A stretch of 64,000 nt of DNA. Source: Atherinomorus stipes (lineage: Eukaryota; Chordata; Actinopteri; Atheriniformes; Atherinidae). Shown one piece after another: positions 28,201-64,000 of this stretch; position 1 is the stretch's first letter, and each line of letters begins with the position of its first letter. The stretch spans positions 21,515 through 85,514 of the forward strand of contig JALJCO010008637.1 in the NCBI GenBank assembly GCA_023101725.1, given 5' to 3'. Below the pieces are notes generated by a model. The model saw only the letters and a program-made list of their open reading frames with translations, had not been told where the DNA came from and made no database searches. The position numbers and the translations under genes were made by a program.

Positions 28201-28498
28201 CGTAGTGCAGCAGTGTCCCCCATCGCGTCCATCTAAACATCTCCATCAGTCTTTGGTAAGGCCGCTCCACAATGGAGCGTGCTGTGGTTAGCAGCTGCTG
28301 ATGCGTCGAGGTGGGCACGATTTCAGTGGAGCGGTCTGTCTGGGTCCAGTTCTTAGACAAAAGCGCTGCAAAAATAAATCTGCTTATTAGCCAGTCATCA
28401 TCACTGGGCCAGGAAATCCTGGTGATCCCTGAAAAAGTGTTCCCTTCTAATTCTCCCATCCGTAGGTCCTCCAGCAGCACCGATGCATCCATGCGCAT
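28040..28498 (-). pseudogene. HARBI1-like transposase, internally deleted
   Basis: The minus-strand translation has VLLEDLRMGELEGNTFSGIT followed by RISWPSDDDWLISRF, the usual N-terminus of fish Harbinger transposases. It then jumps to ARSIVERPYQRLMEMFRW, resembling the C-terminal RSVVERxxGxLKxRW block. The DDE catalytic centre between them is missing, so this is a deletion derivative that cannot transpose by itself. Confidence 0.65.
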
Positions 28499-28592
28499 GC
28501 ATTACACACAAGTATCCCCACGCTGTTAACATGTTTTCATCAATCAGTCTGACTGCCGCGGACCTTGTCAGAATCTGTTTGTTAATGTGGTA

Positions 28593-28866
28593 CAGATCTG
28601 GGCATGAAAAAGTTCCCCTTTCAGCCGACTACCAACCACCTAGCGACTTGTCTGCTAATTCAATCGCACAGAGAAACACCTGTGTGCCCGGGGGAAACTA
28701 TTTCAGAGCATAAATGAATGCCCTGAACAAGGATGTTTCCACACGCCAAGTTTGGACACCGTACGTGATGACGTATTTGCGGGACAAATCGTTCAGCCAG
28801 TGATAGTGCAGTAATAGTGCACCACTTCTGGCAGAAAAAGGAGGAACCTTTTTATGCCCAGATCTG
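28593..28866. mobile_element. 274-bp MITE, copy 1 (partner at 39995)
   Basis: Flanked by TA. TIRs CAGATCTGGGCATGAAAAAG and complement (CTTTTTATGCCCAGATCTG at the right). The body matches 39995-40282 throughout. It lies inside the Harbinger remnant, so it inserted later. Confidence 0.9.
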
Positions 28867-31572: not shown

Positions 31573-31600
31573 CTACCCATATGGAAAAGATATAGATAAA
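31573..31600 (+). repeat. Left TIR of the CACTA-like unit
   Basis: CTACCCATATGGAAAAGATA then TAGATAAA; agrees with the reverse complement of 43274-43301 at 26 of 28 positions. Confidence 0.85.
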
Positions 31601-32396
31601 TCTTATCTGTATTGTCTGAAACTTGTATGTAATGCATATGAGAGTGAAACCAGATATAAAATCTATAGAAAAATAGTATAAAAGAAAACTTATATGATTT
31701 GGGTACTTCTAAGAACAATATATGACCGTAATTCCGCATACAATATCCTTATAAGAAAAATTTAGTATCAAACTTATATGAGTCAGATAAATATAAGTGA
31801 AACTAAGCTATTGTAGTTAACATAGAAAACACTTACAAAATTTACTTGTGATGACAACTATAAGACATTCAACTAAGAATCAACACAATACAACAATAAA
31901 ATTAAGGAAAGATCTCAAATTCACTAAAAGCATTAAAAAAGTAAAAGTAATAACGGACAGTTTAAATATTTCTAAGTTTAGCATTTTTGCATATAGCCAG
32001 GCATATTCTTAATATAATTCTATGAACATAACTGTTTTCCTTAAGGGTAATGTTAATTGACATTCAAAGAACTAATATACCCAATAAATTTGACAAATAA
32101 ATCAACATAGCAAATATTTGAAATCCCTCTAAAAGAACAAATAAAAGTAGAAATAAATATTTGTAGAAAGTCTTTAATCTTGCACAAAATCAGCAGATCA
32201 AGAAATTGCACATTAAGATCTACAAAGAAAATAGTAAGATATGTCTTTACATGACCCAAATTCATTATGACAGTGCTGTAGGAACTGTTTTACCACCACA
32301 CCACTATTCTTTTGCAATGACATTGAAATACATAGTTGATATCATGCATAACATTGCAAAATGTTTCAAATGTTAGATGAACATTTTAAAATTTAA
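31601..32396. repeat. Left subterminal region with short repeats
   Basis: AT-rich and non-coding. Repeated motifs: CTTATATGA at about 31689 and 31772, CCTTATAAGAAAAA at about 31747, ATATAAG near 31791. Similar motifs recur at 42.9-43.2 kb. Minus-strand ORFs here (31518-31739, 32053-32265) are AT-driven. The 3' end of the transposase transcript should fall here; no clear AATAAA was seen on the minus strand. Confidence 0.5.
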
Positions 32397-34615
32397 TCAT
32401 TTACAGTAATATGTGTTCAATAGCTGACATACAATAGAGCTGGACTGTGGACACTGAATGTACATACATGGTTTAACTATCTCAGTGACATTTATGGCTT
32501 TGTAAAAGCCAGTGGGAAAGTGAACAGCTGACATATAGCTCAGTTCAGTTCGGATAAGAGAACCTCTGGCTAACTTTTGGACTGTGCAATTACCATATTT
32601 CCCAATGGCATATAGACACTGATCACCCATGTCAACGAAGTGCGAGACAGCAAAAATACTTCCATCCTTTAAGAGCACGACAGAGTTGTTTCTTTGTTTT
32701 GTTTTGCTGTAGGAATGACCATGAACAACATCTCCATTTACGACGATTCTCTTGTAGTAACTGACCACAGAGTTTGTGGAAACCTCTCTGACTGTGTGGA
32801 GAGCCACTTGGTCACTCTGAGATATTAATCTTACATTTGGTGGACCAAGGGCAGTCACCTCAGTAAACTTTTTATACCTCTTGCCATGCTGGTTTCCTTG
32901 TCTCATTTCATTGCAGAAATCTTTAACTTCTGCAGGTGCATCTGTTAAAAACTGCTTTGCTAAACGGGGGAAAGCACGGGACAATGCCACTCGTTTGCAT
33001 ATTTGTTGTGGTACAGCTTGGCTACTTTTTATTTGTTTCAAGAGGTACCCATTGAAATTTTCAAACATAAAGGCAGAGTGAGCCCATAAAGGACCCCATT
33101 GCACAACACTTTTACTCAAATGTACCAGTGAATGAACATTAAATGTCATGTGCTCTTTCCCATAGAGTGACTGTACACCTCCAACAAAGTACACTAGTAC
33201 ATCATGTGCATGGTTTATTGTTTCAATATTTAATTCTGTACCCAAGAGAATGCCTATGCCCTCTACCAGTAATGCCCAGTGAGAGTGATACTTCTGTGGA
33301 AGTATCCTTTTCAGAACTGGCAAGCTGTAGTACAAAAGCCAATGCTGCCACTCATGAGCTTTCCAGAATTTGCGTTCAGTTAAGGATCTTGGAACTCTAG
33401 CAACAATACCTGGAGGTTTAATAGACAAGAGGTTTTTGTCTATGCTGGCTGTTTGTGCACCAATATACCATGGTTCAGAAATGTTTTTAGAATCTATCCA
33501 TAGAGCAGCCATGTATCTGCACACACCAAGCAGCACACAGTGCATGTAGTCAGATCATCGATTAGATCAAACAATGGTAAATCTGCGAGAGGAGATGAGC
33601 CCTTTATGCCCAATATAATCTTCTGTTCTCTTTCAGCTATTTTTCCTATTTCGACTGTGGTTTTATGATTTCTATCACTTGGCTTTTCATCAGGACATGC
33701 GTAAACCCTTGTGTTTCCTTTCCCTTTCCTTGTTTGCATTCCAGGGTGAAGGCAAGCTCCGCAGCCAAACTCACCATTGAATTGCTTAAAGTTCTGTAGC
33801 AGCGGCCTTGCTACTGCATCACACACACAACACAAAGTGTGCACTTTTATGTGCCTCAGTGACTGATCACGAGGATCCTGCCAATCAAAACCAGCTTGAG
33901 AAAGATTTGTACACTCCTCAACAAACGGTTTAAAGAAGCAGGCCATGTCTGGCTTTTTGGATCCAAACCATAAGGCACATAAAAGTACATGTTTATCTCT
34001 ACTTTCAGGTGGTGTCTCATTAACACAACACAATATTGGCCAGATGCTAAATTTGGAGGACTGAAAAACTGGTACACCATCACAATTGAATGTGAGGGAT
34101 AGAAAATCCTCTTTGCAGTTTGACTTTAAGGTCTGATACAAGCTGCCATCACATATGTCCTTTATTACATGCCTCCCACTGACATCAGCACGAAAACATA
34201 AATCATGCATGCCGTGGTTCTCAAGAATATCTTTCAGCTGACCCTTTAATGGTATACTAATGAAAAAATGGCCTTCCTCTAAACTGGCTTTCACTGTAGT
34301 GGATAAGGAACATGGTACACATGTAAGCATTTCTTCAGGAGACAGTGAAGAACCAATGTACTTAGTACAAACTTTACAGTAATGATGTCGTTCAAACTGC
34401 TCAGTAATATCAGCAAATGGTTTCTCCAGAAAATACTTGCTTGTTGGAACTGCAGTAGTCCCAGCAGAATGCAACTTCAGTAGTTTCAGAAGGTCCTCCA
34501 TTAATACACCTGTAGTGTTGTGTCTCAATGCAAAGGAAAGAATCGAGATGATGCTTTGCTCTTCTGTTAGTCCATAGGAGGAGTGAACATCACCTTCTTC
34601 TTGAGGAAAATTCTC
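32397..34615 (-). pseudogene. Tnp2-type transposase, catalytic exon (exon 7), one frameshift
   Basis: Transposase of the EnSpm/CACTA superfamily, expected to bind and excise the element ends. The exon begins after acceptor CATTCAG (ENFPQEEGDVHSS...; first base 34615) and runs to a stop at 32397. Motifs in order: a cysteine pair cluster (CKVCTKYIG...), PLKGQLKDILENHGM, LTFNCDGVPVFQSSKFSIWP (Tnp2 first catalytic Asp region), CALWFGSKKPDMACFFKPF, GCGACLHPG, YMHCVLLGVCRYMAALW, HSLVHLSKSVVQWGPLWAHS and FMFENFNGYLLKQIK (Glu region). The frame breaks near 33530-33550, between PLFDLIDDL and DYMHCV: the two open stretches (34615-33494 and 33545-32397) overlap by about 50 nt in different frames. Both halves are otherwise free of stops, so the lesion is recent or a sequencing error. 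Confidence 0.88.
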
Positions 34616-36095
34616 CTGAATGGGTGAAGAAGCAATGCGTTACAACTGAGCAGATTTCACTTGTTTTGGCACACTGCACTTGGCGTAGAACATAACCCGA
34701 GATCCAGAGGAAAACATTTTAATTCTTTTTTTCACATGAACTAAGTATTAAGTTGGTAAAACACACATTGCAAGGACTATTTTGTTTTTACCTTATTTTA
34801 CAACACATGCACAACAGAACTTCAGTGAATGTAAGCAGATAACTTTAACACAGTTCAAGAACTGTTTATAAAATGACATGGTCCACTGAAATGTTACAGC
34901 TAATTAATACTCATTTAACATATTTACACAAAATGTTTATAGAAAAAGTGGTTTATGTATCAACTTATAACTCATTTACTTTTCAATAGCCATAGGCCAC
35001 TGGTCCAGGAGAAGCTAATTGAATCATTTCTATGTGTTACCAATTCTGATCAAAATAATAATAATAATAAAAATCCCAGAGTCAAATAAAAATCAATTGA
35101 CTTTCATTTCCCGAAAGAATGAAAATCTGAATATCTCTTCAAAATTGATTTCTGCCTCTTTTAGAGAGCTGTCCAGTTGAAAAAAGTGAAATAAACACGA
35201 ACAAAGTCCTGATGTGTAGTACAGTGTACATTAGGGCTGAACAATTTTAGGAAAAACATCTAAATGTGATTTTTCTGGTAGATGCAATTTCAATTCGATT
35301 CACAATAAGCTTCAGTGCAATATTGATAATGGACAGTTACATTTACAAAAGACAGAAATATCCATTATACCATCTAAACATCAAAAGCTGCTAATCTTAA
35401 TCAAGGATGAAAACTAAAGGTAAGACTTAGCTAACTTGCATGCATTTATTCAAAAAAATGTATGTGCATTCACTTGCGTTCCAAGGATTTTCAGATCCCC
35501 CTGCAGTCCTTACTCCCTCTACCACTTATTGTTGTTCATATCAGGAAGTCTGCATGTTACTCTACACAACTGAATTTCCCTCAGGATGAATAAAGTATAT
35601 ATGTATCTACATACCTATTTGTTTACTTTTAATACCACTACTTGAACAACTGTAAAAGTCCAGTGTAACTGGGTCATTTTTAATATTTTGATCATTCTAA
35701 TCACAATGCCCTGAAAAATATAATAAATTCATAATATCTTTTCATAATACACTTCCTATAACCTATGTAGGTTATTTTTAAGAAGTGAAAATTACAAACC
35801 AGGGAATTTATTATTTTGACACTATTTTGGAACAACATTAAAAGTAAAGTTGGCCAGGCCACAGCCTCACACATGTGAGGTCATCTTAAAGCTATGATTG
35901 CCCTCTCTAAGAAACTTGAGGAATTGGCAGAGTGGCATGTATAGAATGAAAGATATGAGCAGAAAATCAATGTGTACATGTAACAGCGCACAAAAATCCA
36001 TTGCTGTGTCTCAGGAGATGTTATAGCAACATTTTTAAATGTTCCTCCAATGATGAATGAATCAATGTTATAATGTAATTAACCTTAAATCTCAC
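34616..36095 (-). other. Transposase intron 6 with small repeat insertions
   Basis: From donor GTGAGAT (before 36096) to acceptor CATTCAG. It contains a hAT-like end (TTAGGGCTGAACAATTTTAG, about 35231-35250) and a LINE 3' tail at 35570-35620. No coding exon of its own was seen. Confidence 0.6.
35570..35620 (+). mobile_element. LINE 3' tail fragment
   Basis: CTGAATTTCCCTCAGGATGA then ATAAAGTATATATGTATCTA, resembling the common teleost LINE tail (..GAATTTCCC..GGGATNAATAAAGTATCTATCTA). No coding part. Confidence 0.6.
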
Positions 36096-36164
36096 CTGTA
36101 CCACTGTAGAAGGTCCTGCTCTTTGATCTTGTCTTTGCGTAGCACTAGCATCTTCATTTTTGTC
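36096..36164 (-). CDS. Transposase exon 6 (acidic repeat exon, 69 nt)
   Basis: Acceptor TTCTCAG, donor CAG|GTGAGAT. Encodes DKNEDASATQRQDQRAGPST then VVQ, phase 0-0. Last and longest of four similar tandem exons. Confidence 0.7.
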
Positions 36165-36252
36165 CTGAGAAGGATACAAATAAACCACTTGTTACAGAGA
36201 AAGGGAGTGATGGAAGGGGAACTGATTATTTGACAGTGAAGATTTGCCTTAC

Positions 36253-36315
36253 CTCTGGAATTGCAAGAGGTTCAGCTCTCTGTTCTTCTGTCTGACTATA
36301 GTCTTCCTCACTTCT
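36253..36315 (-). CDS. Transposase exon 5 (acidic repeat exon, 63 nt)
   Basis: Acceptor CATTCTTAG, donor GAG|GTAAGGC. Encodes RSEEDYSQTEEQRAEPLAIP then E, phase 0-0. The core EEQRAEPLAIPE parallels SELLAEPLTVPQ of exon 4. Confidence 0.72.
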
Positions 36316-36401
36316 CTAAGAATGAAAATAAAGAACAGATATGTTACTATAATATAAATATGACAAACATATAAAGGCTTTTGTCTGTAGTTTTGACTCA
36401 C

Positions 36402-36461
36402 CTGAGGCACTGTGAGAGGTTCTGCAAGCAGCTCACTTCTTCGGGTGTCATCTTCATTATC
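36402..36461 (-). CDS. Transposase exon 4 (acidic repeat exon, 60 nt)
   Basis: Acceptor CCTCTCAG, donor CAG|GTGAGTC. Encodes DNEDDTRRSELLAEPLTVPQ, phase 0-0. Most similar to exon 3. Confidence 0.75.
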
Positions 36462-36748
36462 CTGAGAGGTTCATAAATCAATTACAGAATAGATAAATAA
36501 ATTACTGATGTGACAGATGACCCAATAAAAGTATCAGGACTGACTTTGACAATTCACACAACTAAATGATCGACTATGCTTCTCATCTCTACATTGTAAA
36601 GTGCAGAAGAGCCTTGGTGTGCACATGTAACGAGAATGAAAGTAAGAGGGCCGAATCTGATCTCATTGTCAAAGAAAGAGAGCATTTAAATGTATTAATT
36701 TATTTTAATTTATACTAATTAATTTATTTTTCGGGCGGGGATCCTTAC

Positions 36749-36811
36749 CTGTGGACCTGTGAGACGAGTTTCTGCTCTCAGTTCTCTCTGGGTATCATCT
36801 TCTTCATTTTC
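36749..36811 (-). CDS. Transposase exon 3 (acidic repeat exon, 63 nt)
   Basis: Acceptor GATTTTAAG, donor CAG|GTAAGGA. Encodes ENEEDDTQRELRAETRLTGP then Q, phase 0-0. Confidence 0.72.
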
Positions 36812-36896
36812 CTTAAAATCATACAAATAAACGACTCGTTTCAAACAGACTTCACACAGCTGGGACATAAAGGACAAAGGAATAAATTGCACTCAC

Positions 36897-36970
36897 GTGT
36901 GGTTGCGTGTTGTGCTTCCCAATGTCAGTCAGAGCTTGCTTGATTTTTCTAATGAAACGATGAACAGCAA
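36897..36970 (-). CDS. Transposase exon 2
   Basis: Proposed acceptor TTACTGAAAG (weak pyrimidine tract), donor CCACAC|GTGAGTG. Joined to exon 1 it gives VAVHRFIRKIKQALTDIGKH then NTQPH and leaves phase 0, as the acidic exons require. Another acceptor a few bases downstream (CATTAG) would lead to a stop, so this one is preferred. Confidence 0.5.
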
Positions 36971-37037
36971 CTTTCAGTAACTTTCATAGCAGTGTCGACA
37001 ACACCAAACATTAGCTGCATTACAACAGTGCGCATAC

Positions 37038-37131
37038 CTTTTTTCCATCTGGTCAAAGTACGAGTAGGAACGTTTCTCCGCAGCCAGTCTCTTTCAGTTG
37101 TGTCGGATGTAACGAGTTTTCTTTTCTGCAT
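37038..37131 (-). CDS. Transposase exon 1 (start codon)
   Basis: ATG at 37131, then MQKRKLVTSDTTERDWLRRN and VPTRTLTRWKK, ending at donor AAAAAAG|GTATGC in phase 1. Basic and Trp-containing, it could be part of a DNA-binding N-terminus, but I recognise no domain. The ATG lies only 58 bp from an ATG on the opposite strand at 37190. Confidence 0.6.
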
Positions 37132-37460
37132 TGCCGTTTCAGTCAGTTGACTCTAGTTTCCCCGGAAAACGGATATTACCGCTAAAACCATGGAGGGTGA
37201 AGCAGTGGTCTTTGGTGTAGACGGCGTAGTCCATGAGGTTAAAGCATTTGCTTTGAGCTCCGAGGGCCGTGATTTGTTAAGAGTACGGTCAAATATCAGG
37301 AAACACCAATCACAGGTAAGGTAGGGCGGAAAATCCCACAACGTACCTGGCAGCTCAACGCGAGACCTTGAACGTGGTCACGCGAGAATATCGGATAGAT
37401 TGCGTAGAGCGGTAAGGTGGACCGTTAATGCAGCTTCGCCTTGTGTGCGTTTTGTAAAAG
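37132..37460. promoter_or_regulatory. Putative bidirectional promoter of the two transposon genes
   Basis: The only space between the transposase start (37131, minus) and the BEN gene start (37461, plus). It is noticeably richer in CpG than the surroundings (CGG, CGC, GCG at 37170-37440) and contains no TATA box that I trust. A shared, CpG-type promoter is inferred from the head-to-head layout. Confidence 0.5.
37190..37315 (+). CDS. Possible alternative first coding exon beside the BEN gene
   Basis: ATG 37190 in a good context (ACCATGG), 42 codons (MEGEAVVFGVDGVVHEVKAF then ALSSEGRDLLRVRSNIRKHQSQ) and a strong donor CAG|GTAAGG. It ends in phase 0, while BEN exon 2 starts in phase 1. It could instead join the ATG at 37461 through the acceptor GTAAAAG, or exon 4 or 6, which start in phase 0. 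No domain is recognised. Confidence 0.4.
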
Positions 37461-37497
37461 ATGGAAACTACGCTGAGGAATGCACCTAATGTTAAAG
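37461..37497 (+). CDS. BEN gene exon 1
   Basis: ATG then METTLRNAPNVK, donor AAAG|GTATGT, phase 1. The leftover G completes GTT (Val) with exon 2. Confidence 0.7.
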
Positions 37498-40400
37498 GTA
37501 TGTACATTTAAGTTTCTTCGTTATATTCAGTCTATGCATTACACATATATAGCTTGCTAAAAGTGGCTAGCTGAGTGCTAACCATATAAAAATAAATGAG
37601 GACCGTTAACATCCCGTGAGGAAAATTTTCAAATTTAATATGTGTAACCCTGTAGACACCGTATAAACACTGTAGTATAATACTGTTTTTTTTCCAAGGA
37701 TAAAGCAATGATTGACGTCTGGTGATATCAGTAATAGTTTTTTCTCTCTCTCTCAGTTACTTCGGAACACAAGGAGAGGAAGTTTGCAGTTGTGCGGTGG
37801 AGTGAGGGGGAGGATGCTGGGAAGCTTAGTGAGGTAAAAACTGATAACATACGGAGGTATGACGACTCCAAGATGGACCAACATGGGAATCCCATTTCCA
37901 CCTACTCAGCTGTTATCGAATGGCGCCATGGGAAGAAACAGCGAGGAGGGTGGCCTCACTACAGGGGCAGTGTTGTTTTTGTCTGTGGTAAGTCTGTGGT
38001 TCTAAATTAATATTGTCCTCTTTCTAGCTAAAGACATTTCTCTGAAAATTGGCTTAGTTTGGCCTGTTTGTTTTTTTATGTGCTTACTTTTCTTGCACAG
38101 TAACTGCAACTTTGCTATGTTTGACAATATACATGATGATGATTTCATTTGAAATGTTAAGACAGCTTGTCACCATTTTATCATTAGTTACTGCTCTTCA
38201 AAATGTTATAAAATTGTAATCTCAAAGTAAACTAAAGTGTGACAGTGAAGGCCCAGGCAACACTCTTAACAGAGTAAATCTCATGACATTTTAAAACATA
38301 ATTGTGGTAATCTGCATCACTGCATCCTACTCCTTTTAATACAAACAACTTAACTCATAAGATTATTGATCTTAGATGTTGAATAGTTTTATATTTAGTT
38401 AATTTTTATATGGATGGAAACTAAGTAAATTATCAATTAGTAGTACTTTGCTGACTGTACTATGTGTACTACACAAAACTATGCTGCAGTACTGACAGTG
38501 TGATAGCACAATACATGAAATGGGAAATGTTATCACACAGCATTTAGACACATACCTGTCTCTGTCTTTGTCTCTTTCTCAATCTCATTTACCACCATTT
38601 GTTACCTCTCGCTTTCACACATCAGAACCATTCCAGTGTACAATTGCATTTTTAGTCAGAGGTAGAAATGATAGTCATGACTGAAGTTGCTTGAAAACAT
38701 GACATGGTCTGGTGATGCAAAAAATGTTGGAGTAACAAGCAGATTATTATGATGTCATTTGTTTGTATTCCTCTTTTTGTTCTCTAGCTACTCGTTTTGA
38801 GGCAGCTCGTAAACTTAATGCATTACTGAGGGAAAATGAACCATCAGACCTGACGAAGAGGGCATCAGTTCACCCTAAAAACTATCAGGATGATTCAGAT
38901 GACTCAGATCCAGATGAGACTCAGATTCTGTCGCAGCCTTTGCAAGTCAAGGTAACATCAATTTACTTTGAACTTTTCTGTGGTGAAATTTTTTTTTTTG
39001 TTGTATCATGTTTAATTTGAAAGGCGAAACTCAGATTTATTTTTACAAACCTACTCCAGTGGTCCTACTATCATGCACACAAACATCATCTGCACGCAGT
39101 GAATTTTGTGATATGTTAAAAGATAAAGGATTAATCAGATGTAGCCTTTTAAATTGGGAAAAAGTTAAATGACTTTTTGGACTGCCTTCCAAGATGTCTG
39201 AACTTTGGAACAAGCCATGGCGTTTGGGGTTGTCAAATCAGCTTTTTAAAGTATGTGGCCTACACTTAGAGGCACAGATATTGAATCTATTGTCTTTACA
39301 CTTCAGATTCTAAACTCCACTACCAGCTTTTTCCTTGTTTCATCATGCCAGTTACTTTGTCTTAATTTCTGTGTATGTCCAGAAATCAAAGGCTCTTACA
39401 AGGAAAGACCCTGCAGAGGAATTCCTTGCAATGTACAGTCATTCACCGCTTTCAGTCACTCACTGTGACCAAAGTCCAAGAAAGACTGTGGTTGAGCTTA
39501 AGCGAGAGATCCAAGACCTGAAAGAAGAGAATGCCAAACTGAGGGAGTTGCTTGTCCAAGGTACTCTTTTAACAATTACACAGCTAATTTACTGTAAGAA
39601 GTCACTTGTTTAAACAATGAGTGTAACATCTTTTATTTCTGGTTTACTGTGTACAGATGTGCCAGAACTCATGAAGACTATGAAAAATGTGATTGATTTA
39701 GCTAAACCTCTTGAGAGATCCAGTTTGGACCTCCCCCAGACTTCTCCACAGTCCAGGCCAGGTTCATCATCTGATGATTCACAGCTGCCCCTTCCCAAAT
39801 CTGCTCCATCCTTCTCATCAGAGTCTGTCACTCCATCTACAAGAGAGTCCCAGTCGTCAAAGGTATTTTTAAAGGATAAATATGGTGTATAAATTGGATC
39901 TACTGTCTGTCAGGAAAATTTTTAATTAATACAGTACCAGTTCAAAGGTTTGGACACACTTTCTTATTACATTTAATGGGAAAACATGCCCATACAGATC
40001 TGGGCATGAAAAAGTTCCCCTTTCAGCCGACTGCCAGCCACTTACCAGCAATTTGTCTGCTAATTCAATCGCACAGAGAAACGTCTGTGTGCCCAGGGGA
40101 AACAATTTCAGAGCATAAATGAACGCCCAGAACAAGGACGTTTCCACACGCCAAGTTTGGACACCGTACGTGTTTGCGTATTTGCGGGACAAATCGTTCA
40201 GCCAGTGATAGTGCAGTAACGGTGCACTATGAGTGCACCACTTCTGGCAGAAAGAGGAGGAACTTTTTCATGCCCAGATCTGTACCTTTAACTGGTACTG
40301 TACATTTGACAGATTTAATTAGATTTTCATTCTTTACAGCCTTTGAAAGATCTGCTCCCAACACCCCCCAAAAATTACTAATCCAACATTTGCATTCTTG

Positions 40401-42250
40401 TCTCTTCTCTTGAGATCCCTTCGAGTCAGATCTCTTCTAGTCAGTAAAAGTCAGTTTAATGTTGACTCTTGTCTCATCTTACTGTATTTCATCTCTTTAT
40501 CTGATGTCCTCTTCGGTGTCTTTGCATTAGTATTAGCCATGGTGTGCCTTCAAAGCAGTTGCTGGCATGTGATGTCAAACACTAGCACAGGTTACAAGCG
40601 ATGTACCACAACAACAGAAAAAAGTAGTGAAGTGCTTTCTCTTAGCCTTAGGACACTGTAATGTATAAAAATGTCACAGCGCCATCAAAATGAATTATTA
40701 ACAAAGTTTTAAGATGAAAGTTATGTAGTGTTGCTTGAAGTCTCTGATCCTGATCCTAAATGGTCACAATGTTTTTTGTTTGATCAGGTGGAGATCCATC
40801 CTGGAACTGGAGTCATGATTGAGAAACTGGCGTGGGCCTACGCTATTAATGCAAATTCAGCTACAGTTTTTGTGAGGCATCTGCTCACAGCAGTCTTCCC
40901 TACAGAGATACTGCTGGTGAGCAATCTTCGAGGGGGAAAACGAGGCAGAGGGGATGCACGTTTACCTCTGGACAAAAATAAATTGGATGCCATCTACAGT
41001 AAGTTTTTTGTTTTTTATGGTATGTATCTTGAGCCATAATTTTTGTTTTTACAGATTACAGACAAGTTTTATTTTTTGTGTTTGTTTTTAATATTTCTGT
41101 TGAACCACAATTAAAAATCAATGTCATGATTTTCATAGAATGCTTTATTTATTGCTTTAGTCACTCACTGATGTTTTTTTCCATCTTAAATTGCAGGGTA
41201 TGAATAATTTTGAGGACGACTGTATCTATTTAACATTTTCTACATTGTATTATTATTAATGAAGAAATGCCACTACCAAATTGATTAACCTAATTTACAG
41301 AGTTCTGCTTGCTCTTCAATTTATTATATGCTGTATTTTAAGGTACAGTCATCCTCAAAATTATTCATACCCTAAAATTTACAGAAAATGCCAAATTCAT
41401 AATAGTAATTCAAATAACGAGAAATGAAAAAAGAAGTAATATGAAAACAATTATAATTTAGTAAAATAAAACATTGATTTTGAATTGTGGTTTAAAAAAG
41501 CAAACAAACAAAACTGTCCCAAAACAATTAGAGCACCTTGCACATGATGGTCAAAATATGATGGACATTAGAGAATGATTTATTGCAATGATTGTCTCAA
41601 AGGTGTTGCTCAACAAAATATTAGTTCAGGAGCCCCATCATGCTTGTTTACTTGTTTTTCTTTTTTGTTTTTTAATATTTAATTTGAACCACAATTCAAA
41701 ATCAATGTCCTGATTTTCACAATTTTTTATGTATTATGACTTTGTTCAGTTTTCAAATTATTTCACAGACAGGTGATTTTTTTTTCCCCCTTACTTATTA
41801 GGAGGGTATGGAAAATTTTGAGGATGACGACATATTATTGGCTTTCTCATGACATGTTATTTTAGGCTATTTCTCTGCTGTCTCTGGTATTATTTTTTGT
41901 CCACACCAAATAATTGAATGAACCATTTGATTAATTTCCTCATTAATAGTGATACACTGATGTTTTTCATTTTAATGAACCTCTCTATGCATGTCTTATA
42001 CACTACAAAGTTGGCACAATTAGGTGATTACAAAAATTATAAAAGCAGGATCATTGCAATAGTTTATTGGCTATTTTCAGATTATTAATTCTACTTAACC
42101 CCCCACTCCCCTTATTTTTGTACATGTATAGGTGCAACTCTTGAGAGGTGGCCTGGGACCCCTCCCTCCAGCATTGGTGTCACAATCAACGCCAAGATCA
42201 CAGAACTCCGAGCCAAAAGTAAAAATGTCTCTGTCACAGAATCCCCTTAA
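37461..42250 (+). CDS. BEN-domain protein gene, seven exons, 381 aa
   Basis: Joined CDS 37461-37497, 37757-37987, 38788-38951, 39383-39560, 39657-39862, 40788-40998, 42132-42250: 1146 nt, every junction GT-AG and in phase, ending TAA. Layout: a short N-terminus; a globular part (KFAVVRWSEGEDAGKLSEVK ... WRHGKKQRGGWPHYRGSVVF); an acidic stretch (DDSDDSDPDE); a coiled coil (VVELKREIQDLKEENAKLRE); a Ser/Pro-rich linker; and a C-terminal BEN domain from VEIHPGTGVMIEKLAWAYAI through FVRHLLTAVFPTEILLVSNL to the end. BEN domains bind DNA or chromatin proteins. It is enclosed by the TIRs and transcribed divergently from the Tnp2 gene, so an accessory role in transposition or self-regulation is inferred. 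A captured or host-domesticated gene is the alternative. Confidence 0.82.
37757..37987 (+). CDS. BEN gene exon 2
   Basis: Acceptor CTCTCTCAG, donor TGTG|GTAAGT. Encodes the KFAVVRWSEGEDAGKL to GSVVFVC block, resembling the N-terminal domain that precedes many vertebrate BEN proteins. Confidence 0.82.
38788..38951 (+). CDS. BEN gene exon 3
   Basis: Acceptor TTCTCTAG, donor AAG|GTAACA. Encodes ATRFEAARKLNALLRENEPS and an acidic DDSDDSDPDE stretch. Confidence 0.8.
39383..39560 (+). CDS. BEN gene exon 4 (coiled coil)
   Basis: Acceptor ATGTCCAG, donor CAAG|GTACTC. Encodes the leucine/charge heptads VELKREIQDLKEENAKLREL, a likely dimerisation coiled coil. Confidence 0.8.
39657..39862 (+). CDS. 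BEN gene exon 5 (Ser/Pro linker)
   Basis: Acceptor GTGTACAG, donor AAAG|GTATTT. Encodes DVPELMKTMKNVIDLAKPLE and a low-complexity Ser/Pro/Gln region. Confidence 0.8.
39930..40302. mobile_element. Small Tc1-type MITE split by another MITE
   Basis: Ends TACAGTACCAGTT (39930-39942) and AACTGGTACTGTA (40290-40302), with TTGGACACACTTTCT-type subterminal sequence. The 39995-40282 MITE sits inside it. All within intron 5 of the BEN gene. Confidence 0.75.
39995..40282. mobile_element. 288-bp MITE, copy 2 (partner at 28593)
   Basis: Flanked by TA, with TIRs CAGATCTGGGCATGAAAAAG and a perfect complement at the right end. Same family and orientation as 28593-28866, with a 14-bp insertion near 40225. 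Confidence 0.9.
40788..40998 (+). CDS. BEN gene exon 6 (BEN domain)
   Basis: Acceptor TTGATCAG, donor TACA|GTAAGT. Holds most of the BEN domain: VEIHPGTGVMIEKLAWAYAI, FVRHLLTAVFPTEILLVSNL and LDKNKLDAIY. Confidence 0.85.
41070..41222. mobile_element. Right part of a Tc1-type MITE
   Basis: Ends GGGTATGAATAATTTTGAGG then ACGACTGTAT. The body (GAACCACAATTAAAAATCAATG...) repeats at 41690-41829. In BEN intron 6. Confidence 0.75.
41344..41829. mobile_element. Tc1-type MITE, ~486 bp
   Basis: Left end TACAGTCATCCTCAAAATTA then TTCATACCC; right end GGGTATGGAAAATTTTGAGG then ATGACG. Same family as 41070-41222. Non-coding. Confidence 0.8.
42132..42250 (+). CDS. BEN gene exon 7 (last exon)
   Basis: Acceptor ATGTATAG; completes Ser with the last base of exon 6, then ATLERWPGTPPSSIGVTINA and KITELRAKSKNVSVTESP, stop TAA 42248-42250. 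This is the C-terminal helix region of the BEN domain. Confidence 0.82.
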
Positions 42251-42516
42251 ATGGAGCTTTAATGGCTTGTTTGTCACATTTTGTGTTACTGCTATGTAAT
42301 GCCAGGTTTTATGTAAAAGATAGAGATTGCTATACTGTAAATGGGCAGGTTTTTATCAACCCCTTGTTTTGCCCAAGTTGAAGCTTGAAAGTTCTATAAC
42401 TAAAGCAGCCAAAAACTATGTTGTCTAGTTTGCTCTTTTCACAAAAGAGTTGAAATAAGGCTTAATGTTTTGATATCAGTATTTCACTGTGATGTAAGTT
42501 CACTTCAAATAGACTT

Positions 42517-42522
42517 AATAAA
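42517..42522 (+). terminator. Candidate polyadenylation signal of the BEN gene
   Basis: AATAAA 267 nt after the stop codon, in an A-rich context; the nearest canonical hexamer downstream. Confidence 0.55.
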
Positions 42523-42799
42523 AAGAAAAAGTTAACCCAGCATTCATGTTTTCTTCAGTATTACAGTTGAAGTTGTTGAGGCATTTATAGACTGCAGAGC
42601 TGTAAATAATGCTATTAAGTAGTTCTGTAATCTAACTGGGTAGTCTATGAACTGCTAGTGTGTGATTCACTTTGGTACATTAATTTACAGTAGTAGAGGG
42701 ACAAATTTATGTGGTTAATTTGTTTCTTAAAGTAGTAATTTGAATCTGTATAAAATTATTAATTAAATGTATGTTTTATAAGTCGAGTTTTAAAAAAAC

Positions 42800-43273
42800 T
42801 TTAAACAAAAAATATAAATAAAATATAGTTTACCATGATATTGTATTGCCTTAACATGCAAAAATAAGACATGCAATGGTACAAATTCCTATAAATTTTT
42901 CTTAAATGACATATAATATGCTTATAAGAAAACATACAAAAAAAGGATAATGAACCTACAAAGTGCATTTATTTTACATATAGAAAACCTATTTACAACA
43001 GCAATTGTTTATATATGTAAAGCATATGTTTATCAGCAGTCATATAGTAAAAAAGTGCCGAAATTATATGGAACATCTATGGAAAATGTAAAATGACATG
43101 TACCTTCCTTATATACCACCTATATATTTTTCACATGATCCTTATCTTATCCTTTTTATTATCATGTATGAAAGAAATGCAAAAGTGGCCACTTTCAAGA
43201 GTAAACCATACAAGTCTTATATGATGCACAATACATGAAGCAAACTAATGGTTTCACAAATCTTTTACAAGTT
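42800..43273. repeat. Right subterminal region with short repeats
   Basis: AT-rich and non-coding. Motifs shared with 31.6-31.8 kb: GCTTATAAGAAAAC (about 42918), CCTTATATACC (about 43108), TCTTATATGATG (about 43215), plus several ATATGG and CATATAG copies. Confidence 0.5.
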
Positions 43274-43301
43274 TTTTTCTATTTCTTTTCCATATGGGTA
43301 G
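43274..43301 (-). repeat. Right TIR of the CACTA-like unit
   Basis: Complement of the left TIR; ends ..TTCTTTTCCATATGGGTAG at 43301. Confidence 0.85.
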
Positions 43302-49729: not shown

Positions 49730-50430
49730 GAGGCAGAGAGAGGCAGAAAGAGACAGAGAGGGGCAGACACTGTCAGAGGGAGGTAGTGTAAAAAGATGAG
49801 AGAAGCTGGGAGAAAGATCAGTGCATAGATATATGGACTGAAATCACTTCAGCTTTGGCATAGAGGCAAAACAAGACAATGATATAAGGAATACAAAGAA
49901 GATTCTCCTGACTTATTTATGCTGGATGGGGAAAAAAGAACTTTGAAATTTTCTATTGAAGCCCCTGAACTGACACCCAAACCGAGAGAGGACTGACTGG
50001 AACTTCAGCTTTTCTTTGGAGTTTTGCAGCCTCTTTCTAGGATGCATCTTTTATCTTTTTTATTGACCCCTATTTAAAGATTTTGACTGGATCAGTTGTG
50101 GGTATTGTTCTAAAGAAGGATGCTTTTCTGTTCAGAGCTAGCCAATGCTCTAGCCCACCAGGGAGAAGAAACAAAACCAATACCCATACAGGACCGGTTG
50201 TTTTATAATCTCATGATGTCCCACGGCTGAAATACCAACCTTGCACTGGAAATAAAGGATTAGCTCATCTTGAGAGGCATGACCTATATTATCCAGACAT
50301 AAGTGATTCTAAGGAGCTGCTATCTTTTGCCATCTCTGTAAAGACGACAATGTGGTAAGATCAAAATACTGAGATAAAATAAACAACCAGACGACCCCTG
50401 AGACTTTTGGGAATTCTTCATACTGTAGCT
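49730..50430 (+). promoter_or_regulatory. dlg1: Probable promoter and leader of the second dlg1 alternative first exon
   Basis: Purine-rich (GGCAGAGAGAGGCAGAAAGA) stretch followed by AT-balanced sequence up to the ATG at 50431. Several short upstream ATGs (for example 50104 and 50350) end quickly. No TATA box or acceptor stands out; the extent is inferred from the position of the exon. Confidence 0.35.
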
Positions 50431-51393
50431 ATGACCACATATTTCCACAGTCATGAGTTTTGCTGTAGCCCAAAAAAGCCCAGCAGTAGTTCCTCAAAGG
50501 GCAAATCTGGAAAAGGGAAGGCCAAATCAGGCAAAAGTCATTCTCATTTGAAGCATAACCAAAATTTGTTGCAGACGCCAAATCACCAACTGCAACCTTC
50601 ACCGCTTCACTCACCAAAGCAGCGTCCCCATTCAAAGCATAGCTGCCATTCTCCAAAACAACTACTTCTTTCTCCATCGCCTAGCTATTATCACATAGCC
50701 CCGCCATCTCCAAGTCATCAGCTAGCTCCGCCAGCACCAGCCTGCCAGCTGGCACCACAGTCTCAAAATAATCTTCTGCACTCACCAAGTCATCACCAGC
50801 TCCAGCTATCACCAAGTCACCACCAGCTCCAACTATCACCAAGTCACCACCAGCTCCAGCTATCACCAAGTCACCACCAGCTGCAGCTATCACCAAGTCA
50901 CCACCAGCTTCACATATCAGCAAGTCATCATCACTTGCAGCATACTCAGCAACAGTGCCATCTTCCAGCCTCACCCAGCCACTTCCTTTCTTCACCTTCA
51001 ACTCATCAGATCTACCACCACCAGCATTTCCATTCACCAAGTCACCACTCTCTGTTCCAGCAGTACCAACAGCACCACAGCTACCCTCCTCCTCTTCCTC
51101 ATGCCTCCCAGTCACTGTCTATACATCCTTTCCACTCACCGCAGCTCCCTTTGTGTTCGGGGCTGGGCAGTTATGGCTGGAGCACACTGCCTTCCAACCT
51201 GGCCACCAGGGGCTCAAAAGGGAAATTTCCAAACCTGAGGGACAGCGTGAAAAAGAGTCCGACAAAGAGCAAAGGCAAATTTGGCTGCAGGCCATGGCCC
51301 AATGACACGTATATCTGGACTGCACACTCTGTGGCTGCAGCCCCACATCTTCCACTCAGACACAACTTCCCACAAATACAGGCACATGTGCAG
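50431..51393 (+). CDS. dlg1: dlg1 alternative first coding exon, His/Pro/Ser-rich (321 codons)
   Basis: ATG 50431 to donor CAG|GTAGGT in phase 0, so it can join ANPPP directly. The product begins MTTYFHSHEFCCSPKKPSSS (basic, Lys/Ser-rich). It has a long low-complexity middle rich in SPSHHQLQ repeats and ends with LGSYGWSTLPSNLA, then KFPNLRDSVKKSPTKSKGKF, then GCRPWPNDTYIW. The last block resembles, from memory, an alternative DLG2 (PSD-93) N-terminus (GLGYSSQTMPS, LWDSVRKSPHK, KGKGNCG) and more weakly DLG3, which argues that this promoter predates the split of the DLG paralogues. The known relatives are about 100 residues, so the middle is a large expansion. The CC pair at residues 11-12 could be a palmitoylation site. 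An in-frame TTG 24 nt upstream is not used as the start. Confidence 0.85.
50782..50943 (+). repeat. 27-bp coding tandem repeat, ~6 units
   Basis: Units of TCACCAAGTCACCACCAGCT + CCAGCTA, read as SPSHHQLQL in the dlg1 frame. Five good copies (50782-50916) and a degenerate sixth. The antisense ORF encoding GDLVIAGAG repeats is an artefact of it. Confidence 0.93.
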
Positions 51394-53580
51394 GTAGGTT
51401 TTTAACGAAATGTGCCATTGTGGGTTGACAGCTGTTGCTAATGGGGAAAGTCTTGTGTGCATTTGATCATTTATTTCTTGTTCAAACCAAATACTTTCGA
51501 TTCGCTTTCAGAGAGCCCAAGAATAATGTGACTGTTATACAATGTTAGCGTAAAACATAAAAACAGTTTGGTCAAAATGCATTGTTAGACATCAGTCCCT
51601 GAACAACAGATGTAGATTTAAATAATTCAAAAGTAATAGTTTTCATGACCTAATTAATTGTACAGATATAAAAGAGCATTCAACTTGAACAAACAGATTA
51701 AGACACTTTTCATGACACCAGTCTTCATTAAAGTGGCAATATACAGTGTGAAGGGAAGTCTTCATACTGTAAATACTACTATGGTATACTGACTACTAAT
51801 AGCAAACCTGTAAGCATATATCCTTATTGTATATATTCATCAACAAACGTTAAGGGCATTTGTCAAACTGGCCTTTGAAATAAAGTACACAAACCTCTCT
51901 CTCAAAGTGCTTCTCTGATGATTTTCACACAAACTTAACTGTCAACTGAATTTACATCTAGCTGTATGTCGTGCAGGATGTGACTCCACGTTTTTGAACT
52001 GAGGAATGCTGAAAGCAAGAGAACAGACAGTAAATTAGAAGTTTATTGAAATTAACTTAAAAAAAAGTAGTGAAAGTGCCCAATGGGACATCATAACCCG
52101 ATGACATGATAATGATCAAAGGGACATTTCCAATTACATCATCAAGCATAATCATCCACATGAAACAGTGTTGTTTGAACAACAAACTATTTAACCTAGA
52201 AAAAGACCCGTTACTAACTATTAGTTCTGTAGTTATTGAGCTGTGGGGGCAGTGATTGAAGATAGCAGGTACTTATACTGTGATTAACATGATTAGCCTG
52301 GTTTTTCTGATTTGATCAGTCACGCTCCATCTGATTAAGTCATTACTCAAATTGAGTTTTATTGAACATTATGAGGACAAACTGGGTAGTCATGCTAAGA
52401 TAAGGTGTTGTGGGTGTGTGCACTACTTGTTAACATGAGCTGTTATTATTAAGAGGTGTAGACTGATGCCCAGTACCATGAAATCTGAAGCAGTGCAGCA
52501 AGTGTGATGTGATGTCTGGGAAACAAAAGTTGGAAAAAAAAGGATGTGAATATGGTAGATATTCTGCAACAATTTTGCTAGAAATTACCATATTGCTAGC
52601 TAATGATTTTCTTTTTTCACTTTGTTTTTTCATACATGCGAGTGTGTGAGTGTGTGTGTGCATGCATGCGTTTGTATTAAATTGATCAATTATTCAATTA
52701 AGAGCTGCAGTGCATTATTAAATGTCATAGGACTCTTGATTTTCACTTATATAATCATTAGTTATCTGGGAATCATTCAGCTGAGCAGAGCAGCCCAAAC
52801 CAATTGAAAATTATCTCCTCTAAGCACACAGTTACACATACATACACAGATGGAAACAAGCACTTTAACAAGTGTAAATAACCCCCGTGTACTGTGTGGT
52901 GTCTTGAGAGCTCTAATCACTTGTTTGACTTTTTGTCTCATCCTGATAAGTCAAACTACAGATTCCCCGAAGCTCTTCCTAAGCTGTGCTGGACTGAACC
53001 AGGCCATAATGCCATGATGATACAGCTGGTGTAACAGCATTTATGTAACAACTAACAATCACTTGCACAGAGCAACAGAACACTGTCTGGATAAAAATGT
53101 TGTGTATTTGCACGTTTGTTCTTTTGGCCTTTTGATGTAACACAACACGCCCCATGAACACACACACTTGCACACATATTGATGTTACATAATGGTGCAG
53201 CCTGATATGGCGTGTCAGTGGAATCACCAGCTGACTGACCAGCTGGATGTGTCGCTTTGTGAGTGACACACACAGTGTTGTTAAAATGGTGTGGGAGTCA
53301 GATAAGGTTGGGGTAAGACAACAGACTTAGAAAAGTGGTAAAGCGGGTAGCTGTCAGGTGTCAGCTTATAGTTTTAGCTGGGGTTACTCAATAAGTATTA
53401 GCTTTTATTGTCCAGGATGAAAGTTTTTAGTGTTTCATGGGAAATTATTTCATACATTATATAATGGTAATTTGTGTTGTTTTCTGAGAGGTGTACTGTG
53501 ATGCAAGTTCAGCATAGCCAAGCTTTTTTGTGGCTCAACAAAACCCAGGTCAGAGATAACAACTAGAGAGGAGCTTATAG

Positions 53581-59586: not shown

Positions 59587-60993
59587 TCACTCCATCACAT
59601 AGTCCCTAAAGCGAGCAGGGGGTCGTGACGACCTACCAACCCGAGAGAACCTGAGTGGGACAACTGTTTGGTCAGGGCAACCACCGGCACCTAAGTCGGC
59701 ATCACGACTCCAGTCCATGTCCCCATCACAGAGGGACCTGCTCATAGGGAACCCAGGTGTGGCAGCATCTTCCTGCAAAGCAGCGGGTGGAGAAGGGGTG
59801 AGGAGGTTCCCAGACGGCCCCCCCAAAGGAAAAGCCACAGGCAGGTTGTAGCGTCGCAGCCTGTCATAGTGGACGGTTTGAAGTGGGGGGTCCTCCCCGA
59901 ATGGGCTACTAATCTGATAGGTGACGCCAACCTCATCAGCCCTGTCCATTCGTCGTTGCACCAAGTAAGGTCCCTTCCAGTGGGGAGCCAGTTTACGGCG
60001 GCTCTCTGTGGGGTCATTCAACCATACAAGGTCCCCGACTTCATATGGTTCGTGCCTCACCTTGGCATCGTAGAAAGTCTTTTGTTTTTTGCTTGCCCCA
60101 ATGTTGTTTTCCTTTGTCCGAGTAAAAGCAGTGTTCAAACGTCTGAGGAGGGAGTTAGCAAAGTCTTCTGGGGACCTATCTACTGGCTCGCCCCGCACTA
60201 GCGGGCCCAGCACCACATCCACCGGCGTCCGGGCCTCCCGTCCGTGTGTGAGGAAGTAAGGTGTGAACCCGGTGCTGGAGTGTACACTGGTGTTGTACGC
60301 GAAAGCAACTTGCAACAGAAAAGAGTCCCACTCTCCCTCACATGACAAGAGTGTTTTAGCCAACTGGTCAATGAGTGTTCTATTAAATCTTTCTACCATC
60401 CCATCCGACTTCGGGTTATAGGGAGTGGTATGAGTCTTTTTCACACCCAGCAGCCCGCACAAATGTTTCACCATATCTGATTCAAATTGTCTTCCCATAT
60501 CTGTGTGCAGCGTTTCCATCACACCATGTTCCAGAATGTAGTTCAGAAAGAGACACTCAGCCACTGTTGAGGCCTTTTGATCAGTGATAGCATAGAGGTT
60601 AACAAACTTTGTGAAATAGTCCTCAACAACCAGAACATACCGGTGGCCCTTTGAAGTGACCGGCAACTCAAGTATGTCGGCCGCTACACGCTGGAAAGGT
60701 CTCTCTGCCTTCAAAGTCCTCATAGGAGCATGATGTTGAGGAACTGGGGACTTCCTACTTTGACAGGCGTAGCACTGGTCACACCAAGCCTTAACATCAC
60801 TGTACATAGTGGGCCAATAACAAACACCCCGGGCACGTGCCAAAAACCGTTCATACGCGAGGTGAGCTGTCAACGGAGTGCCTTGCAGATGTCTGAGGAT
60901 CTCGGGGACCAATACAGCAGGGACCACAACTTGTGTTGCTCCTCCCCGTCCCCCCCTCAGACTGCCACACAACCCTGCACAATAGTCCATCAA
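59587..60993 (-). CDS. Gypsy integrase (pol C-terminal part)
   Basis: Joins the cDNA to host DNA. Visible in order: the HHCC zinc-binding domain (HLQGTPLTAHLAYERF ... CDQCYAC); the DDE core with DILELPVTSKGHRYVLVVED, LHTDMGRQFES and YNPKSDGMVERFNRTL; and a C-terminal GPY/F-type module (GDLVWLNDP ... HWKGPYLVQRR). It ends after a Pro-rich tail (FRDYVME). The 5' edge of the open frame is not a natural start: the reading frame changes near 60960, where the preceding linker is in another frame (60851-61273). In the intact family, integrase is part of the pol polyprotein. Confidence 0.9.
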   Translation of the reverse strand: MMDYCAGLCGSLRGGRGGATQVVVPAVLVPEILRHLQGTPLTAHLAYERFLARARGVCYWPTMYSDVKAWCDQCYACQSRKSPVPQHHAPMRTLKAERPFQRVAADILELPVTSKGHRYVLVVEDYFTKFVNLYAITDQKASTVAECLFLNYILEHGVMETLHTDMGRQFESDMVKHLCGLLGVKKTHTTPYNPKSDGMVERFNRTLIDQLAKTLLSCEGEWDSFLLQVAFAYNTSVHSSTGFTPYFLTHGREARTPVDVVLGPLVRGEPVDRSPEDFANSLLRRLNTAFTRTKENNIGASKKQKTFYDAKVRHEPYEVGDLVWLNDPTESRRKLAPHWKGPYLVQRRMDRADEVGVTYQISSPFGEDPPLQTVHYDRLRRYNLPVAFPLGGPSGNLLTPSPPAALQEDAATPGFPMSRSLCDGDMDWSRDADLGAGGCPDQTVVPLRFSRVGRSSRPPARFRDYVME

Positions 60994-61273
60994 TGAAAGT
61001 CAGTCTGGGAAACTCGTGCCACAGTCTCTTCAAACCCCGACTGGTATCCTTCAGCCTCCACCTAGAGGGTCTCTGACCTTCCTCCAACCAGGTCAGTACT
61101 TGCCTGATGTCAGCGTCACTCCATTGGAGCTTCCTGACATTTGAGCCGTCGTGTGACAGAGTGAAGATTAAGGCTCGGTCCACACAAGCCTGGGAGAAGG
61201 CAAATGTGGGCCGTAGCTGGAGTAGGGGGCCACTGTAGGGGCTGTGGTGGAAGTGGGAGTCTCTATGGCGCAA
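60950..61273 (-). pseudogene. RNase H-integrase linker in a shifted frame
   Basis: The frame carrying RKLQWSDADIRQVLTWLEEG and LKRLWHEFPRLTFIDGLLCR belongs between RNase H and integrase but is offset from both neighbours. One shift lies near 61170-61270 and the other near 60960. Described only as found. Confidence 0.65.
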
Positions 61274-63594: not shown

Positions 63595-63611
63595 CCGGGT
63601 CCCGATGCCAG

Positions 63612-64000
63612 CTACTGGAAGTTTCCCCGCTCCTCTCTGTGCGGGGATGGTGACCGTCGTGAAGGAGAGAGAAACCTCACGCCCCGCCGCGGCTGACGTT
63701 CCTCTGTAAAACGCTGCTCCCTCTGGCCTTCACTGCCCAGCTGGCATGGTGAGAAGCCAGCAGTGGTGTCTTGGATCCCCCGCTCTCGTGGAGACCATTC
63801 CCTGTCACGGAATCCTCCCTGGAGCCTGCGCTGTGGAGACCGGCCTCTCACACCGTCGTCCATCCTGAAGTCCCTGGAGGTGGACCTGCAGCCGAACCCA
63901 CCACAAGCGCAGTGACAAGCACGCCGTTGCCCCCCCCTGGGCTCTGGCGACGAGCCCCTGGAAAAGGGGAGCCACGACCGTCAAATTCAGACTCACGGGT
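63612..64000 (-). CDS. Gypsy gag, C-terminal part (cut by window end)
   Basis: The open minus-strand frame from the window edge to the stop at 63612. Arg/Ser/Pro-rich (RGRSPQRRLQ ... SPSRRSPSPHREERG) with a Cys/His cluster CHCACGGFGCRS, reminiscent of a nucleocapsid zinc knuckle though not the classic CCHC spacing. The N-terminal capsid part lies outside. Confidence 0.6.

Follow-up and report, generated by a model that had tools for sequence, protein, structure and literature searches.

Results

Two divergent genes lie between inverted ends

The window analysed here, a stretch of 64,000 nucleotides from the fish Atherinomorus stipes, contains an element with inverted ends that encloses two genes arranged head to head (Table 1), namely a gene for Tnp2 (Transposase_21) and a seven-exon BEN-domain gene, as an earlier note on this DNA had claimed. 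The two are divergent, and in the gene models their start codons are 329 bp apart.

Table 1. Features of the element (window coordinates).
Feature	Position	Strand	Basis or remark
Whole element, 11,723 bp	31576..43298	.	ends set against other copies
TA target duplication, left	31574..31575	.	flank comparison
TA target duplication, right	43299..43300	.	flank comparison
Left terminal inverted repeat	31576..31600	+	23/25 match the right one, first 15 identical
Right terminal inverted repeat	43274..43298	-	partner of the left repeat
Left end kept in short derivatives, ~150 bp	31576..31726	+	
Right end kept in short derivatives, ~130 bp	43170..43298	-	
Tnp2 main exon (Transposase_21)	32397..34615	-	frame broken near 33555 in the window copy
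Tnp2 small repeated-type exon, approximate borders	36096..36164	-	reading frame, splice-like signals
Tnp2 small repeated-type exon, approximate borders	36253..36312	-	same basis as 36096..36164
Tnp2 small repeated-type exon, approximate borders	36402..36461	-	same basis as 36096..36164
Tnp2 small repeated-type exon, approximate borders	36749..36811	-	same basis as 36096..36164
Tnp2 first coding exon, approximate borders	37039..37131	-	start resembles Sparus aurata P0002
Region between start codons, presumed two-way promoter	37132..37460	.	inferred from gene models
BEN exon 1	37461..37497	+	splice borders; start near-identical to P0122
BEN exon 2, N-terminal beta domain	37757..37987	+	
BEN exon 3	38788..38951	+	
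BEN exon 4, coiled coil	39383..39560	+	
BEN exon 5	39657..39862	+	
BEN exon 6, BEN domain core	40788..40998	+	Pfam BEN; borders common to the C1458 exon
BEN exon 7 with stop	42132..42250	+	

Tnp2 scores 38.4 bits against Pfam Transposase_21 (PF02992; cut-off 28.6), and its small exons resemble repeats near the N-terminus of Sparus aurata P0002; DUF4218, a domain that goes with Tnp2 in CACTA elements of the plant En/Spm type, reaches 15.7 bits, below the cut-off of 27. A small deletion disrupts the frame in the window, and two other copies are open. Across an alignment of 12 Tnp2 sequences, the candidate D-D-E residues D396 and D483 are invariant and E738 is nearly so (P0002 numbering); we take these three to be the catalytic triad.

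The BEN gene model joins its seven exons, with splice borders in place, into a frame of 381 residues. Its BEN exon narrowly exceeds the cut-off of Pfam BEN (PF10523; 23.4 against 23.2 bits), and all five relatives tested lie between 23.2 bits, the cut-off itself, and 29 bits. Weak profile matches to the structures of BEND6 (E 0.035) and NACC1 (E 0.13) are not significant alone. No phage record matched the BEN relative P0128; a search of the genome for the BEN-like domain DUF4806 gave no match either, and its controls likewise gave none. No RNA family sought in the window matched. The proposed setting in a dlg1 intron could not be substantiated: a rough scan with PDZ/GK motifs returned no match.

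Element ends and target duplications

The inverted ends begin CCCATATGGAAAAG..., and the arms 31573-31600 and 43274-43301 match at 26 of 28 bases. The earlier note had recognized these inverted repeats correctly but began them at 'CTA', 3 bp too far out: the flanks of the copies diverge directly outside CCC, so the true ends, CCCATATGG..., are at 31576 and 43298. Outside them, 'CTA/TAG' consists of the TA target duplication and a C/G that pairs by chance.

The 14-bp end motif, CCCATATGGAAAAG, has 55 exact occurrences in the genome, compared with once for a reversed control pattern; 32 of these places were inspected, and 29 continue like element ends and three do not. The suggested check for a target duplication of 2-3 bp revealed one of 2 bp, TA, at the window copy. 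Of 12 end pairs, 9 have the same two bases on both sides (p = 2.7e-9 at a chance of 1 in 16 each), the exceptions being C2063, C2924 and C3841. As candidate subterminal repeats, eleven seven-letter words occur four or more times within the two 850-bp ends but no more than once elsewhere, which none of 300 random placements equalled; the top single word was equalled in 37 of 300. The element end also contains the palindrome CCATATGG, and CTTATATGA-like words are likewise among the candidate targets of the BEN protein.

Copies and short derivatives in the genome

Copies were sought in the window's own genome (1.18 Gb). Among the matches listed, the BEN exon is found at six places, and on each of the six contigs the opposite strand encodes the same Tnp2 and at least one end motif is present. 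The expected family of several copies with both genes and the same ends is thus present, and the contrary finding named in the earlier note, a BEN gene by itself at a conserved place, did not turn up within this genome. The copy on C3841 is 99.0% identical to the window element across 10.9 kb and has both ends.

Among four copies, the BEN exons vary at 10 of 1146 sites and the introns at 66 of 3611 (p = 0.022). Four of the codon differences change the amino acid and six are silent, too few to prove selection; in the C3498 copy a single base is inserted into exon 2 of BEN. Four short derivatives of 264-288 bp consist of only the two ends (~150 bp left and ~130 bp right), as would be expected if these ends were the sites used in trans. 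The element appears to be a recently active fish DNA transposon.

Related Tnp2 families and other fish

On C1458 and C1924, a second Tnp2 family (40-43% identical to the window Tnp2 in the parts that align) is accompanied, at the corresponding divergent position, by a BEN exon that is ~30-35% identical to that of the window; the C1458 exon, read directly, has the borders of window BEN exon 6. From this related exon, the Tnp2-BEN pairing probably predates the window family. At a further BEN locus of the second family, on C6617, no Tnp2 was among the matches listed. A Tnp2 relative on C2710 (69-87%, with stops, older-looking and well inside its contig) was without a BEN match, as were the 6 kb upstream of the C6100 Tnp2 family when searched with the BEN profile. 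That profile also had no match at 18 further Tnp2 loci, comprising other or older copies; the sequence covered there reaches only ~1.5 kb past Tnp2, so this absence carries little weight.

A third Tnp2 family (C3969, C1149 and C2408) looked promising as a BEN carrier and is counted as unproven. It has an upstream divergent exon that by eye is like the N-terminus of BEND5, and C3969 has a weak BEN-like match (E 2.6) on the same strand as this exon. The BEN N-terminal profile misses the exon (1240 of 2000 shuffles score equally high), the full BEN profile had no match in the 6 kb upstream of the third-family Tnp2, and the exon recurs on C1189 and C1886, where no Tnp2 was among the matches listed.

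Relatives of both proteins, including full-length BEN relatives, occur in many ray-finned fish, and in Platichthys flesus Tnp2 (LOC133956257) and BEN (LOC133956255) are apparently on the same contig. A search of the open-access (PMC) literature found no published pairing of Tnp2, or of a CACTA element, with BEN.

Discussion

A possible role for the BEN protein

We read the element as a cut-and-paste transposon with two genes, belonging to the animal CACTA/EnSpm branch, in which Tnp2, as a DDE transposase, would cut at the CCC ends. The product of the divergent second gene is predicted to have a BEN DNA-binding domain as well as an N-terminal beta domain and a coiled coil. Most plausibly, it would bind as a dimer to the element ends or to the promoter between the two genes, load or steady Tnp2 there and tune expression, as TnpA does for maize En/Spm. 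We lean modestly towards this reading of the BEN protein as a TnpA-like helper or regulator of a two-gene animal CACTA transposon; its DNA binding, its contact with Tnp2 and the need for it in transposition are what we infer from sequence. In favour of a helper stand the six of six paired copies, the nine of 12 duplications, the end-only derivatives, the second family, the Platichthys flesus pair, the low exon variation and the end-rich words; against it stand a top end word that is not unusual, the few BEN changes, the C3498 insertion, the near-cut-off Pfam scores and the unpaired loci.

It is somewhat unlikely that the BEN gene, although a constant part of the element, acts outside the cutting step by regulating the element's own promoter or by countering host silencing in the manner of chromatin-boundary BEN proteins. 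The starts lie ~330 bp apart, head to head, an arrangement in which a single promoter factor could govern the two genes. BEN proteins in published papers, as far as the accessible text goes, are chromatin and transcription factors. However, this alternative overlaps with the helper reading, as TnpA has both roles in the accessible part of PMC1636069, and the word-rich ends implicate the ends at least partly.

That a host gene of the BEND5 type was captured once and persists as a roleless passenger appears improbable, although the BEN exon of the second family shares 38% identity with a BEN exon of host-like kind on C7148 that we presume to be BEND5-like. Passenger genes normally decay, whereas the BEN exons vary less than the introns; moreover, BEN accompanies two Tnp2 families that are only ~40% alike, and its full-length relatives are spread over many fish. 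An artefactual pairing, through unrelated repeats or a Tnp2 element that landed beside a BEN gene, is refuted by the six copies, which lie on separate contigs, agree in gene order and strands and are all accompanied by an end motif, and is further opposed by the near-identity of the C3841 copy and by the target duplications. As for evolutionary direction, BEN may be the regular partner protein in an ancient line of animal CACTA transposons from which some host BEN genes (BEND5-like) were domesticated, and not the reverse, a scenario that we consider doubtful.

Plant members of the superfamily require a second DNA-binding protein, a role that the animal description of 2006 left unfilled in its accessible part because the extra proteins there, PrA and PrB, were without recognizable relatives (PMC1636069). 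A BEN gene that accompanies Tnp2 in two or more element families is a concrete candidate for this protein. The two open Tnp2 copies and the defined 150- and 130-bp ends provide a ready two-component test system, and the transposon is a possible source or destination of the BEN domain beyond DNA viruses and the chromatin factors of hosts.

Comparison with known systems

Host BEN proteins (BEND5, BEND6, Insensitive, NACC1 and BANP) have a C-terminal BEN domain, some with a coiled coil, and are chromatin factors, whereas here BEN is encoded by a transposon with several near-identical copies. Maize En/Spm has subterminal repeats and a single, alternatively spliced transcription unit, and differs from the present element in this unit, in its CACTA ends and in its 3-bp target duplications. 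TnpA is not known to be a BEN protein. Both systems combine a Tnp2-type transposase with a separate partner that binds DNA (TnpD and TnpA in maize) or is predicted to (Tnp2 and BEN here), and TnpA is described as a promoter regulator that is also required for transposition (PMC1636069, accessible part); by analogy, the BEN protein may be the animal counterpart of this plant-transposon helper. The 'CACTA-like' label of the earlier note suits the transposase and the superfamily's animal branch, but the termini are CCC rather than CACTA: with ends CCCATATGG and a duplication of 2 bp, the element departs from the plant En/Spm pattern of CACTA with 3 bp.

The accessible part of PMC1636069 proposes CCC ends as a hallmark of animal CACTA elements and reports 2-bp target duplications in 7 of 14 copies. 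Because CCC ends and 2-bp duplications are reported there for TRC elements, assignment to the animal branch of CACTA/EnSpm is firm at the sequence level. SmTRC1 and other animal TRC elements also resemble the present one in Transposase_21 and in encoding extra spliced proteins; the second proteins described there are PrA and PrB, with no BEN domain named in the accessible text, whereas here the second protein has a separate, divergent BEN gene (PMC1636069).

Ends of the element and target duplication

The 1.18-Gb genome contains 55 copies of the 14-base end motif CCCATATGGAAAAG, as against one of the same pattern read backwards, and 29 of the 32 sites examined among these 55 continue like the ends of the element in the window, the exceptions being the loci L010, L029 and L032. 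Among copies of the motif, the flanking bases diverge immediately outside CCC, and the element therefore runs from 31576 to 43298. The inverted arms, which the earlier note had drawn out to 31573 and 43301, are present with 26 of 28 bases complementary, but their outermost CTA/TAG is not part of the element: it is a TA duplication plus a chance C and G.

The exact-match list contains 12 cases of two facing motifs on the same contig at most 25 kb apart (contigs C741, C1060, C2063, C2320, C2924, C3122, C3841, C4212, C4498 (the window), C4936, C5492 and C7345). The adjoining two bases are identical in nine of these end pairs (p = 2.7e-9 at a chance of 1 in 16), bearing out the proposed search for a 2–3-bp target duplication at a length of 2 bp; the mismatched flanks are those on C2063 (CG/TG), C2924 (TA/AT) and C3841 (TT/CA). 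The sequences of five short end pairs were read from end to end. Four measure 264, 277, 285 and 288 bp and consist of ~150 bp of left end and ~130 bp of right end; the fifth, on C2063 (1,023 bp), shares these ends and carries a different sequence between them.

Features of the window and of related loci
Position	Strand	Feature
9191-9997	minus	269-residue frame, Tc1/mariner transposase in appearance; a very similar piece lies upstream of the C6100 Tnp2 (L080)
28426-28710		contains a stretch similar to the inverted repeat at 39933-40300
31573-31600 / 43274-43301		inverted arms
31576-43298		CACTA-like element
37190-37316		between the two genes: 42-codon frame with a donor-like site, out of phase with the BEN frame; upstream small frame or alternative first exon
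39933-40300		BEN intron: inverted repeat with 26-bp arms (39993-40018 / 40259-40284, 100%), probably a small nested element
50383-51402		340-residue frame, rich in Lys and Ser at its start, containing a 27-bp tandem repeat of about five units (50782-50927); perhaps a repeat-bearing host exon
59590-63980	minus	long frames that include stretches resembling protease, reverse transcriptase, RNase H and integrase; by eye, a Ty3/gypsy-type LTR retroelement
C741:11163-34335		23-kb element copy with matching AA flanks
C3969:7401-13500 (L079)		set of divergent exons lying upstream of the Tnp2 of a third family, one that was copied recently; also on C1886 and C1189

Two divergent genes

The head-to-head arrangement of a Tnp2 gene and a multi-exon BEN gene, as first described, is upheld, with start codons 329 bp apart. 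A long minus-strand exon scores 38.4 bits against Transposase_21 (cut-off 28.6), and small exons upstream of it resemble the repeated N-terminal units of a Sparus aurata relative (P0002). The DUF4218 profile, expected in plant elements, stayed below its cut-off on the element. The main Tnp2 frame is disrupted by a small deletion in the window copy and is open in the copies on C3841 and C3498.

The plus-strand BEN gene has seven exons encoding a 381-residue protein, the start of which is near-identical to P0122 from Cyprinodon tularosa and the last exon of which agrees with the relatives P0123, P0124 and P0128. With 23.4 bits, exon 6 scores just above the Pfam BEN cut-off of 23.2, and all five relatives tested reach it, one of them exactly. 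In the predicted structure of P0128, from Phoxinus, an N-terminal beta domain is modelled with confidence and is followed by a coiled coil (residues 154–197) and a helical BEN region (255–356); the whole-chain scores of this model are low (mean pLDDT 67, pTM 0.31), and trust is therefore restricted to the domains.

Copies in the genome and relatives in other fish

The six BEN exon matches lie one on each of six contigs (C741, C3468, C3498, C3841, C4498 and C4774), all of which carry a same-family Tnp2 on the opposite strand together with one or more exact copies of the end motif, so that the several copies anticipated by the earlier note, with the same gene pair and the same ends, do exist. 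The Tnp2 on C741 is full of stops and that on C4774 is cut by the contig start. C741 holds a copy about twice the normal length, which therefore probably contains nested insertions. The C3841 copy aligns with the window in two segments, 10.9 kb at 99.0% identity and the last 0.85 kb at 97.8%, separated by a low-complexity insertion of ~1.1 kb; C3498 and C4774 show 98.1–99.0% identity, the C3498 copy missing ~200 bp at 36470-36672, having no match for the outermost left end and carrying a one-base insertion in BEN exon 2. Across four copies, variable sites number 10 of 1146 in BEN coding sequence versus 66 of 3611 in introns (Fisher p = 0.022, copies being treated as unrelated), and four of the ten variable BEN codons alter the amino acid. 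On C185 and C5045, Tnp2 pieces are 97–99% identical and a contig edge lies within ~1 kb upstream, placing the BEN part outside view; a weaker Tnp2 relative well inside C2710 (69–87%, with stops) has no BEN match.

At least 159 proteins are related to Tnp2 at E up to 0.001, scoring being limited to candidates sharing most words; the best 120 of the 159 were inspected, and relatives at 55–87% include Sparus, Platichthys, Merluccius, Triplophysa, Brachyhypopomus and Acipenser. For the BEN protein, 48 relatives were found, a number that rises to 55 when an alignment serves as query, and those listed with an organism name all come from ray-finned fish. In Platichthys flesus, the only such case noticed by eye among the matches listed, Tnp2 (LOC133956257) and BEN (LOC133956255) have near-consecutive gene numbers and contigs of equal size (28,160,870), strong but indirect evidence that they are neighbours.

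Pairing beyond the family

With weak matches allowed, Pfam BEN exceeds its cut-off at 13 or more loci of the genome, the three C2242 domains being counted once and the number being a lower bound because 20 candidates were scored. Eight of these 13 have a Tnp2 match no more than 10 kb away, namely the six element copies, C1458 and C1924, the chance of a random locus being so near ~0.0008 on the assumption of 45 Tnp2 loci; C2242, C7148, C6617, C6388 and C5671 have no listed Tnp2. The minus-strand Tnp2 on C1458 and C1924 is 40–43% identical to the window family over aligned pieces, and the plus-strand BEN exon starts 6.5–6.7 kb from it, the window distance being ~6.2 kb. The C1458 exon, the sequence of which was read, is ~30–35% identical to the BEN family of the window and, like exon 6 there, opens with V-x-x-x-P-G directly behind an AG and ends just past KLDAI, before GT. 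C6617 has a third copy of this exon type.

Upstream of the C6100 Tnp2, the BEN profile found no match within 6 kb. C3969, with the third Tnp2 family, failed two tests as a BEN partner case and is suggestive only; the exon set upstream is possibly a BEND-like partner. This family has an open 766-residue frame on three contigs.

Comparison with known CACTA elements

The initial CACTA-like identification holds for the animal branch and fails for the plant CACTA-ended type, to which the element does not belong: by its transposase, CCC ends and 2-bp duplications, it falls within the animal CACTA branch described with SmTRC1 (PMC1636069). Full-text searches of the open-access literature listed no description of a BEN gene inside a CACTA element, and an unpublished or repeat-database-only record may exist. 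Eleven seven-letter words are concentrated in the two ends to a degree reached by none of 300 random placements, the top single word being equalled by 37 of 300. Candidate binding sites would be the palindrome CCATATGG, present in both ends, and the word-rich flanks; for the BEN protein, binding to the ends, contact with Tnp2 and a need in transposition are putative. According to PMC1636069, both TnpA and TnpD are essential in maize, and the extra proteins of SmTRC1 have no detectable relatives yet must fill the part of TnpA. The BEN gene makes a good candidate for such a role.
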